Shown in pieces: positions 16,160 to 19,897 of a DNA stretch of 43,324 nt. How positions within the stretch are numbered: the stretch's first letter is position 1; every line of letters begins with the position of its first letter. A model generated the notes under the pieces. That model did no database searches, was not told the origin of the DNA, and saw nothing but the letters and a program-made list of their open reading frames with translations. The stretch is taken from positions 1 through 43,324 of the forward strand of contig JAHECY010000028.1 in the NCBI GenBank assembly GCA_024641505.1, in the 5' to 3' direction. This stretch comes from Gammaproteobacteria bacterium. Lineage in GTDB: Bacteria > Pseudomonadota > Gammaproteobacteria > SG8-11. Position numbers and translations under genes: made by a program.

Positions 16160-17014
16160 CTATGCTTCCATGGCATTTTTCAGTTTCTTAATCGCATTAT
16201 TTTCCAGTTGGCGGATACGTTCCGCGGAGACGCTGTATTTAGCCGCCAACTCATGCAGCGTTACTTTGTCATCAGCCAGCCAGCGTTGCTCGAGTATATC
16301 TCGACTGCGTTCATCAAGATCCGCCAGGGCGGTTTGTAACCGGTAGGTATGATGATCTTCCCAGTTTTCCTGCTCCAACTGCTCCGCCGGGTCGGCACCC
16401 GCGTCATTCAGATAGTTCGCCGGCGCGTAATAATTATCGTCGTCATCCGCATCCCCATAGTTATCGAAGGCAGCGTCGTGGCTGCTCATGCGTTTTTCCA
16501 TTTCCAGGACGACTTCCGGTGACACACCAAGATCTTTGGCAACCGTCTCCACTTCAGCCTGGGTGAACCAGCCCAGGCGTTTTTTCGAACTGCGCAAATT
16601 AAAAAATAATTTGCGTTGCGCCTTGGTCGTCGCAACCTTAACGATACGCCAGTTACGCAAAATAAATTCGTGAATTTCAGCACGGATCCAGTGCACTGCG
16701 AAGGAAACCAGGCGGACACCGACATTGGGATCGAAACGCTTCACCGCTTTCATCAGCCCGACATTGCCTTCCTGGATCAAGTCACCCAGTGGCAACCCAT
16801 AGCCTTTGTAACCCCGGGCGATATGGACGACAAAACGCAAGTGCGCCATTACTAAACGCTGCGCCGCGAGCAGATCATTTTCTGCGGTCAGGCGTCGGGC
16901 ATAACCCTGTTCCTCCTCAAGACTCAGGATTGGAATCTGATTTACCGCACTCACATAGGCTTCCAAACTGCCGGCGGTGCTGGGATTGATCGCAAGGACC
17001 AGGTCTTTTGCCAT
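16160..17014 (-). CDS. rpoH: RNA polymerase sigma factor RpoH (sigma-32)
   Basis: Heat-shock sigma factor directing RNA polymerase to chaperone and protease genes. The start is taken at the ATG at 17014 (MAKDLVLAI), with AGGGG about 8 bp upstream; an earlier TTG adds two residues only. The 284-residue product matches E. coli RpoH throughout: region 2 ([50 protein letters not shown]), the diagnostic RpoH box QRKLFFNLR (133-141), an Asp-rich linker near 185, and region 4 with the helix-turn-helix [11 protein letters not shown]. Genes ftsY, ftsE and ftsX lie upstream on the same strand, the conserved gammaproteobacterial order. A CIRCE-like operator stands 37 bp upstream. Confidence 0.97.
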
Positions 17015-17051
17015 ATGCAATACCCCTAATATTAGCTATTAATCATGAAGT

Positions 17052-17078
17052 TTAGCACTCCATGCCTGAGAGTGCCAA
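17052..17078. promoter_or_regulatory. CIRCE element (HrcA operator) upstream of rpoH
   Basis: The inverted repeat TTAGCACTC-N9-GAGTGCCAA differs from the CIRCE consensus (TTAGCACTC-N9-GAGTGCTAA) at one base. CIRCE is the binding site of the heat-shock repressor HrcA. It ends 37 bp before the rpoH ATG. On the minus strand TTGGCA (17078-17073), an 18-bp spacer and TAAACT (17054-17049) make a plausible sigma-70 promoter embedded in the element, so HrcA binding would block it. Confidence 0.8.
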
Positions 17079-17188
17079 GAGATGGGGAAGTTCCAACGCG
17101 AAATTAATAGCCCATGTAACAAATTTTTTCACGGACACCGCCCCGGCTGCGGACCGGAGCTGGTACCAACCTCCTAACCAATTGAAAA

Positions 17189-18208
17189 CTATCGAGGTTC
17201 TATTTCCCGTAAATGACGGCCAACGGATAACCAGGCACCACCCAATCCCAAAATAATCCCTGCTGATAACATAGTTATGCCTGGAATTAAACCAAGGTAC
17301 TGAAGCAAGTATTGGGCATTGTATAGACTCGCCAATTGACTGACAGGTCCACGAAGGGTCCATACTGTTGCGGTCACCAACAGCCATGCTACGGCACCGC
17401 CACCCAGCCCGAACCATACACCCCAATATAAAAATGGTCTTCGAATAAAAGCGTCCGTACCCCCAATGAGTTTTGTCACCACTATCTCCTGACGCTTATT
17501 CTGTATGATCAAACGAATGGTGTTACCGACAACCACCAGGATCGCAATGCCCAGAAATGCGGCAAAAAGGTAGAGACCGTATTGCCCGATGTCCAACAGC
17601 CCGTTGAGACGCTTAACCCATTGCAAATCCATCTGTACCGCGCTAATGCGGGGAAGAGTCTTGAGGTAAGCGATCAATGACTGAGCCACTTCCGGGGTAA
17701 AACCTTGAAATAGTGGTGTTATAATTAACACCGGCGGCAAAGGGTTTTCTCCCAAAACCTCAATGGCATCACCGAGGCCTGACATTTGTTTGAATTCGGA
17801 CAGCGCCTGTTCCTTTGAGATAAAGGTGACGCCGGAAACATGTTCATGCTGACTAATGGTGTCAATCAGCGCCGTTCTCTCAACATCTTGCAGTGATTCA
17901 TCGAGAAATACCGTGATCTGTGCGCTGTCATCCCATACACCAGTCAGTTGACGGGTATTGTCCAGGAGCACGTACAGTCCCGTGGGTAACGCCAGAGCCA
18001 CGCCCAATACCAACGAAGTCATCAAACTTGAAAAAGGCGTACGCCAGAATTGCCCAAGGGTGGATACCATCGCCCACAGATGGCTACCGAAATAACGCCC
18101 CACAAAGGAGTGATAAATATTGTCCCGCTCACGGCGAGCCACCGCCCGCGCTTCGGGTGGCAAACGACCGCGGTTTCGCGTGTAGGAAGCGGCACTAACA
18201 AAACCCAT
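17189..18208 (-). CDS. ftsX: Cell division protein FtsX
   Basis: Inner-membrane subunit of the FtsEX complex, which transmits ATP-driven changes to EnvC at the septum to activate murein amidases. The 339-residue product has a basic cytosolic N-terminus, a first membrane segment at about 60-83, a periplasmic domain (about 90-215) containing QITVFLDES and the FtsX-typical VTFISKEQAL, then three further membrane segments near 213-240, 263-290 and 308-330. Overall length is close to E. coli FtsX (352). AAGGTG precedes the ATG. It follows ftsE after 28 bp. Confidence 0.95.
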   Translation of the reverse strand: MGFVSAASYTRNRGRLPPEARAVARRERDNIYHSFVGRYFGSHLWAMVSTLGQFWRTPFSSLMTSLVLGVALALPTGLYVLLDNTRQLTGVWDDSAQITVFLDESLQDVERTALIDTISQHEHVSGVTFISKEQALSEFKQMSGLGDAIEVLGENPLPPVLIITPLFQGFTPEVAQSLIAYLKTLPRISAVQMDLQWVKRLNGLLDIGQYGLYLFAAFLGIAILVVVGNTIRLIIQNKRQEIVVTKLIGGTDAFIRRPFLYWGVWFGLGGGAVAWLLVTATVWTLRGPVSQLASLYNAQYLLQYLGLIPGITMLSAGIILGLGGAWLSVGRHLREIEPR

Positions 18209-18236: not shown

Positions 18237-18914
18237 CTAGTGTCGCTGCTCTGAACCTGAATCGGAGATCAAACGACTTTGTCCAAGCTTGAGCACCCGA
18301 AAAGGAAATTTATCGATAATCGCCACATCATGAGTCGCCACCATGACCGTGGTACCTATGGAGTTAAAGTCCTGAAATATTCCCATAATTTCCGCGGATA
18401 ATTCCGGATCAAGATTGCCCGTGGGCTCATCCGCCAATAACAACTTTGGCCGGTTTACTACTGCCCTGGCGATGCCCACCCGTTGCTGTTCACCCGTGGA
18501 TAATGCAATGGGCAGATGCTTTTCCTTACCCAACAAACCCACCTTGTCGAGCGCGGCACGCACGCGGCGACCGATTTCCCGATTTCGCACACCGGTAATT
18601 ATCAACGGCAGCGCCACGTTGTCGAAAACGGAGCGATCAAACAGCAGATTGTGATTCTGAAACACGATGCCCATGGAACGCCTGAAATGCGGTATATTGC
18701 GCCGGCTCATTTGCCCCAGGTTGCTGCGGTCCACTAGAATGTGGCCGCGGGTGGCACGTTCGATCAGCGCGATTAGTTTCAACAATGTACTCTTGCCGGC
18801 GCCAGAATGCCCGGTGAGAAAAACCATTTCAGCGGGAGCGACATGAAAGCTGAGATTACTCAAGGCCTCATAGCCGCCGGGGTAGCGCTTTACTACATTA
18901 GTGAACTCAATCAT
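18237..18914 (-). CDS. ftsE: Cell division ATP-binding protein FtsE
   Basis: ATPase of the FtsEX complex. The 225-residue ABC protein has Walker A GHSGAGKST (35-43), the Q-loop at FQNHN (85-89), signature LSTGEQQ (138-144), Walker B LLLADE (158-163) and the switch His in ATHD. The signature has Thr in place of the usual first Gly of LSGGQ (LSGGEQQ in E. coli FtsE). The start codon overlaps the ftsY stop (ATGA, 18911-18914), so FtsE is translationally coupled to FtsY. Confidence 0.96.
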   Translation of the reverse strand: MIEFTNVVKRYPGGYEALSNLSFHVAPAEMVFLTGHSGAGKSTLLKLIALIERATRGHILVDRSNLGQMSRRNIPHFRRSMGIVFQNHNLLFDRSVFDNVALPLIITGVRNREIGRRVRAALDKVGLLGKEKHLPIALSTGEQQRVGIARAVVNRPKLLLADEPTGNLDPELSAEIMGIFQDFNSIGTTVMVATHDVAIIDKFPFRVLKLGQSRLISDSGSEQRH

Positions 18915-19897
18915 GGAGCGTCAGGCTCGAGCAGGGCGGTGACAAACTCATGCGCCTGAAACGGACGTAAATCTTCGATTCCCTCACCGATACCAATATA
19001 ACGAATAGGTACCGACAGGGCTTGTGCAATGGCAAATAACACTCCACCCCGTGCCGTACCATCCAGCTTGGTCAGCGTAATGCCGGTAAGTCCTACCGCC
19101 TCATGAAATTGCCGCGCTTGATTGACCGCATTCTGCCCGGTACCCGCGTCCAGCACTAACATGACTTCATGGGGTGCGGAGTCATCGAGCTTCCCCAGAA
19201 CCCTTTTGATTTTTTTCAATTCTTCCATAAGATTGGCTTGGGTATGCAGTCTACCCGCGGTATCCGCGATCAACACGTCGATACCACGTGCCTGCGCGGA
19301 CTGGAGCGCGTCATACACCACGGACGCTGGATCGGCGCCACTCTGTTGGGCAATAACGGGCACATCATTGCGTCTCCCCCATTCCTGTAGCTGTTCGACT
19401 GCCGCGGCCCGAAAGGTATCGCCGGCAGCCAACATCACCGATAAATTTTGCGCCAACAACTGCTTTGCCAATTTTCCAATGGTTGTGGTTTTACCCGCGC
19501 CATTGATCCCAACCATGAGAATGACAAAAGGCTTATGTTTCATGTCAATATGCAGGGGTTGCTCGGCCGGAGCGATCAAGGACATCATGGCACTCGCCAA
19601 ATACTCCACGATATCCGCAGAATCCCGCACCCGCTGCTCCTTAACAACCGCCTGCAAGTCATTAAGTAATTTGCGGGTACCTTCCACGCCCACATCCGCC
19701 AGAAGCAGCTGCGTTTCCAGATCCTCCAGCAACTCATCATCGATTCTTGGATGACTCCCCAACAACCCCCCCAGACCGCGGGTAAAAGATGCTCGCGTCT
19801 TGCCTAAACCCTGCTTTAATCTGGCGAAAATACCGGCGGTGCCGGCCGCCGGTGTTGCCGCCGGGGATGAGTCTTTTTTGCTTTTACCAAATACCAT
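18911..19897 (-). CDS. ftsY: Signal recognition particle receptor FtsY
   Basis: SRP-type GTPase that docks ribosome-SRP complexes at the inner membrane for co-translational insertion. The 328-residue protein consists of a short Ala/Ser-rich N-terminus, the helical N domain (about 22-115) and the G domain with G1 GINGAGKTT (130-138), GDTFRAAAVEQL, DTAGR, and TKLDGTARGG. The long acidic A domain of E. coli FtsY (497 residues) is absent, as in many bacteria; the amphipathic helix at the start of the N domain (IFARLKQGLGKTR) is kept and should provide membrane binding. First gene of ftsY-ftsE-ftsX. Confidence 0.96.
   Translation of the reverse strand: MVFGKSKKDSSPAATPAAGTAGIFARLKQGLGKTRASFTRGLGGLLGSHPRIDDELLEDLETQLLLADVGVEGTRKLLNDLQAVVKEQRVRDSADIVEYLASAMMSLIAPAEQPLHIDMKHKPFVILMVGINGAGKTTTIGKLAKQLLAQNLSVMLAAGDTFRAAAVEQLQEWGRRNDVPVIAQQSGADPASVVYDALQSAQARGIDVLIADTAGRLHTQANLMEELKKIKRVLGKLDDSAPHEVMLVLDAGTGQNAVNQARQFHEAVGLTGITLTKLDGTARGGVLFAIAQALSVPIRYIGIGEGIEDLRPFQAHEFVTALLEPDAP

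Follow-up and report, generated by a model that had tools for sequence, protein, structure and literature searches.

Repression by HrcA and activation by sigma-32 are as a rule presented as two systems running in parallel, and Escherichia coli serves as the model for control of rpoH, the gene for sigma-32. A 2004 study of Geobacter sulfurreducens predicted a CIRCE operator in front of rpoH (PMC545781, Table 8). It is the same operator before the same gene as at the locus described here, 51 bp ahead of the start codon, but it comes from another phylum-level group and stands as a single predicted case, reported without a bench test and with no sigma-E overlap described (PMC545781). The CIRCEs of groESL and hrcA-grpE-dnaKJ are likewise the same operator and presumably bind the same repressor; the genome analysed here has the groESL site. 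In Campylobacter, GroE promotes the binding of HrcA and heat abolishes it; the GroE titration model goes back to a proposal for Bacillus (PMC8533110).

E. coli rpoH is also known to have a sigma-E promoter, P3 (PMC8103513), and AlgU drives rpoH P3 in Pseudomonas aeruginosa (PMC13104619). A non-exhaustive search of the open-access literature returned no description of an overlap between CIRCE and a sigma-E promoter or of a class-wide distribution. Some of the rpoH CIRCEs may already be listed in Permina and Gelfand's 2003 survey, which covered beta-, gamma- and epsilon-proteobacteria. The new layer is that the rpoH CIRCE forms the predicted core of a fixed composite promoter with a sigma-E overlap.

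Predicted operator and promoter elements at the rpoH locus

The window, the whole 43-kb stretch of DNA that was analysed, carries the following features around rpoH.

16160..17014, minus strand: rpoH, sigma-32, 284 amino acids (TIGR02392, 412 bits, cut-off 323, E 9e-124)
17049..17054, minus strand: predicted sigma-70 -10 box TAAACT, made of the end of the CIRCE right arm and three flanking bases; spacer of 18
17052..17078, minus strand: CIRCE operator, probable HrcA binding site; one mismatch to the consensus, conserved upstream of rpoH across the class
17067..17071, minus strand: predicted sigma-E -10 box TCTCA, made of the last two left-arm bases and the first three loop bases
17073..17078, minus strand: predicted sigma-70 -35 box TTGGCA within the CIRCE left arm, read from the sequence; relatives show TTRGCA there
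17088..17094, minus strand: predicted sigma-E -35 box GGAACTT; commoner at rpoH than at control CIRCEs, and tracks rpoE
17189..18208, minus strand: ftsX, upstream neighbour of rpoH (TIGR00439)
18237-18914: ftsE, upstream of ftsX (TIGR02673)
18911-19897: ftsY, beyond ftsE (TIGR00064)

The CIRCE consensus is TTAGCACTC-N9-GAGTGCTAA, and the window site, TTAGCACTC-N9-GAGTGCCAA, departs from it at one base. The plus strand reads TTAGCACTCCATGCCTGAGAGTGCCAA at 17052-17078; on the rpoH gene strand the operator is TTGGCACTC-TCAGGCATG-GAGTGCTAA. It ends 37 bp before the rpoH ATG (17014, minus strand) and is the sole match with three or fewer mismatches in the 43 kb, for which shuffled sequences give an expectation of 0.02. 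The operator described in the initial annotation, one base off the consensus and 37 bp from rpoH, is thereby confirmed.

That annotation had also placed a sigma-70 promoter in the site. TTGGCA-N18-TAAACT is indeed present and fits the pattern of such promoters, a TTGACA-like and a TATAAT-like hexamer with a spacer of 16-18 bases, but it is not all that the site contains, as the sigma-E -10 box lies there too. The GGAACTT at 17094-17088 on the minus strand had been missed, only the sigma-70 boxes having been named. It is followed after 16 bases by TCTCA, and GGAACTT-N16-TCTCA has the make-up of a sigma-E promoter (GGAACTT, a TCTNA-like -10 box and a spacer of 15-17 bases).

The genome (G000, 4.78 Mb) encodes a single hrcA as a full-length frame of 345 amino acids (PF01628, 218 bits, cut-off 22), followed by grpE, and an rpoE (TIGR02939, 321 bits). 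It holds one other CIRCE with three or fewer mismatches, a perfect site before groES (groESL). The initial annotation had named the lack of hrcA as grounds against its reading; the gene is present, as is the CIRCE it proposed to look for before groESL. Upstream of hrcA-grpE, no CIRCE with fewer than eight mismatches was found in this genome, so that HrcA is predicted to have two direct targets, groESL and rpoH. A search for sigma-32 promoters before hrcA, groES and rpoH in this genome returned nothing convincing, the best candidate agreeing in 9 of 13 letters. The hrcA-grpE operon (L001, 887-1177) lacks a CIRCE as well as a clear sigma-32 promoter, and hrcA appears not to be self-repressed in this genome.

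CIRCE before rpoH across the Gammaproteobacteria

We selected 94 genomes by kinship, in most cases a single one from each family of the class, searched them for rpoH, CIRCE and hrcA, and read the 350 bp upstream of each rpoH. Among near-complete genomes (at least 90% complete; incomplete ones may hide hrcA or rpoE), rpoH is preceded by a CIRCE in 47 of the 51 that carry hrcA vs 2 of the 20 that do not (Fisher p = 4e-11, a test that ignores kinship, whose effect family-wise sampling lessens and does not remove). When all genomes with a readable upstream region are counted, the operator is found, at three or fewer mismatches, in 55/59 with hrcA vs 6/26 without; shuffles of the same upstream regions never came under five mismatches. 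These counts point to CIRCE at rpoH as the usual state in hrcA-bearing Gammaproteobacteria. The exceptions are four near-complete genomes that have hrcA and no operator at rpoH (G017, G030, G041 and G076) and two near-complete genomes that retain the operator with no hrcA detected, for example G020 (97% complete).

All five genomes of the window's own family keep the rpoH CIRCE with zero to two mismatches, so the loss of both arms in close relatives, which the initial annotation had named as its other refuting result, was not found. Its central claim, that HrcA controls rpoH, has good sequence support in the presence of hrcA, conservation in the family and co-occurrence across the class. The further claim that this would be an exceptional joining of two separate systems does not stand, because the arrangement is usual in hrcA-bearing Gammaproteobacteria and had been predicted for G. 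sulfurreducens in 2004 (PMC545781).

Some lineages depart from the single operator. In G014 (L103) and G056 (L064) the CIRCE at rpoH is accompanied by another CIRCE-like repeat, half or full, reading gagtgctaaaattt just upstream in G014 and ttggcagac-N9-gagtgctaa just downstream in G056, which suggests tandem operators at rpoH in some lineages. G036 (L026, L087) has two rpoH genes with a CIRCE before just one, and its copies may be under different control.

A scan of about 85,000 genomes of bacteria and archaea with the exact pattern GAACTT-N8-10-CIRCE matched at least 117 stretches. CIRCE adjoins rpoH in all 80 readable loci fetched among the matches listed, 78 of these 80 having the expected orientation. 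L166 and L203 were considered as exceptions to the rpoH linkage and rejected, as rpoH was found on the other side of the palindrome. By record title, the matches listed include Xanthomonadales, Burkholderiales, Rhodocyclaceae, Nitrosomonadales and Chromatiales, and also Alcanivorax, Halieaceae, Methylomonas and Thioalkalivibrio; Dyella likewise has the composite. In one record titled Verrucomicrobia (L148), the composite promoter stands before an rpoH of proteobacterial type (60% identical); this record is probably a mislabelled or mixed bin. In a draw of 200 Pseudomonadota genomes, about 150 of them from other classes and the remainder largely from few families, the strict composite, searched as the exact pattern, was found in the window's own genome alone. 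It thus belongs to part of the class and not to Pseudomonadota at large.

Geometry of the proposed composite promoter and competing explanations

Sixty-one rpoH sites were aligned, anchored on the operator. Relative to the operator, GGAACTT occupies positions -16 to -10; 34 of 42 GAAC[TC] matches fall in one register. The 9-base loop, free in CIRCE, tends to start T-N-A at rpoH sites, and the consensus of the 61 sites, GAACTT-N16-TCTNA, has the geometry of a sigma-E promoter. At its 3' side the right arm continues as TAAAAT or TAAACT, which together with TTRGCA in the left arm makes a sigma-70 promoter with an 18-base spacer. CIRCE thus extends over almost all of the sigma-70 core and over the -10 box for sigma-E.

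These features were compared with 35 CIRCEs before groES or hrcA in the same class. A sigma-E -35 box (at least four of the six letters of GAACTT) is present at 41 of 61 rpoH sites vs 5 of 35 controls (p = 5e-7), and A at the third loop base at 45 vs 6 (p = 1e-7). The sigma-70 -10 box, TAnnnT, is found at 57 rpoH sites vs 5 controls (p = 2e-15). G at the third left-arm base was considered as a mark of -35 selection and dropped, since it occurs at 18/61 rpoH sites but also at 6/35 controls. The sigma-E -35 box moreover tracks rpoE, as scored with the RpoE family model. Genomes with rpoE have the box at 40 of their 53 sites and those without it at one of eight (p = 0.001), or 32/43 vs 0/6 in near-complete genomes. 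The loop T showed no specificity for rpoE-bearing genomes in this small sample.

At groES loci (for example L002, L034, L053 and L132), CIRCE typically starts where a TTGACN-N17-TATTAT promoter ends. The operator at groES thus abuts the promoter end, whereas at rpoH it is the promoter core with the sigma-E -10 box in its loop. The class would then typically use one operator in two repression geometries, over the start site at groES and over the promoter core at rpoH.

The upstream region of E. coli rpoH contains TGAACTT-N16-TCTGA, which we take from its position and boxes to be P3, and it has no CIRCE, as the initial annotation had stated. Boxes and N16 spacing are the same as in GGAACTT-N16-TCTCA of the window and precede the same gene after ftsX, within the common order ftsE-ftsX-rpoH. 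Unlike the genome studied here, E. coli has no hrcA, and its rpoH has several separate promoters in place of one compact composite. Genomes with rpoE and no hrcA detected, such as G081, G079 and G006, retain the sigma-E boxes and have a degraded operator. In G081, TGAACTT-N16-TCTTA is accompanied by a near-intact left arm and a right arm one base short.

Taken together, the sequences show three conserved elements in constant geometry that occur along with hrcA and rpoE, which makes it quite likely that rpoH has a composite promoter, in which one CIRCE lies over overlapping sigma-70 and sigma-E starts and HrcA gates both. From the arrangement we infer HrcA binding, use of the two promoters and the gating logic.

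Alternatively, the site could be no more than an HrcA operator placed on a sigma-70 promoter, with sigma-E boxes that are due to chance or form a weak, inconsequential promoter. The sigma-70 -10 box is the most constant feature outside the operator, and the sigma-E -35 box is absent from 13 of the 53 sites in rpoE-bearing genomes, about a quarter, which indicates that the operator does not need GGAACTT. Against chance, GGAACTT keeps a fixed register and the 16-base spacer of E. coli P3, follows rpoE and is rare at the controls, and we regard this explanation as unlikely.

It is more improbable still that the CIRCE is genuine and HrcA acts on groESL alone here, the rpoH copy being a relic. The single mismatch, in the right arm of the plus strand, would fit decay, as would a genome of the same genus (G001, 79% complete) that has two mismatches and no hrcA found. 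However, one arm keeps nine of nine letters and the other eight of nine, the TTGG variant also occurs in many genomes with hrcA, and the operator shows none of the decay that accompanies loss of hrcA in other genomes.

The remaining possibility, that the inverted repeat is an RNA element or terminator whose hairpin ends the ftsX transcript or shields the rpoH leader, draws on the perfect arms of a repeat between ftsX and rpoH and on the fact that CIRCE may form part of the leader elsewhere, but we rejected it as barely credible: no T run follows the repeat, there is no Rfam match, predicted folding of the leader does not exceed that of shuffled sequences (z 0.5), the arms conserve their letters and not merely their pairing in the 61-site alignment, both predicted starts lie at or past the right arm and would leave the full repeat outside the mRNA, and the presence of CIRCE follows hrcA.

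With a composite promoter gated by HrcA, the repressor on CIRCE would block both the sigma-70 and the sigma-E start. Strong rpoH transcription would be expected just when HrcA is inactive, on heating or when misfolded protein occupies GroE, which then no longer supports HrcA. As GroE helps HrcA to bind and heating undoes this binding in Campylobacter, heat or GroE overload would free rpoH. Envelope stress would feed in through sigma-E, again on condition that HrcA is off. The direct targets of HrcA in this genome would be just groESL and rpoH, and sigma-32 would relay the signal.

Implications for heat-shock control

The distribution suggests that hrcA-bearing Gammaproteobacteria usually stack both modes of control, with a repressor site on the activator gene and an added envelope-stress input. 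We are evenly divided on whether an HrcA gate over sigma-70 and sigma-E was the ancestral control of rpoH in the Gammaproteobacteria, with E. coli P3 as a remnant after the loss of HrcA and with sigma-E able, in species of the ancestral type, to raise sigma-32 only after HrcA release. If this is true, the E. coli circuit with its HrcA-free rpoH would be the derived case. The arrangement raises the question of whether sigma-E induction of sigma-32 depends on HrcA release, and models of the heat-shock response based on E. coli may miss a main control point in other groups such as Xanthomonadales, Burkholderiales, Rhodocyclaceae and Chromatiales.
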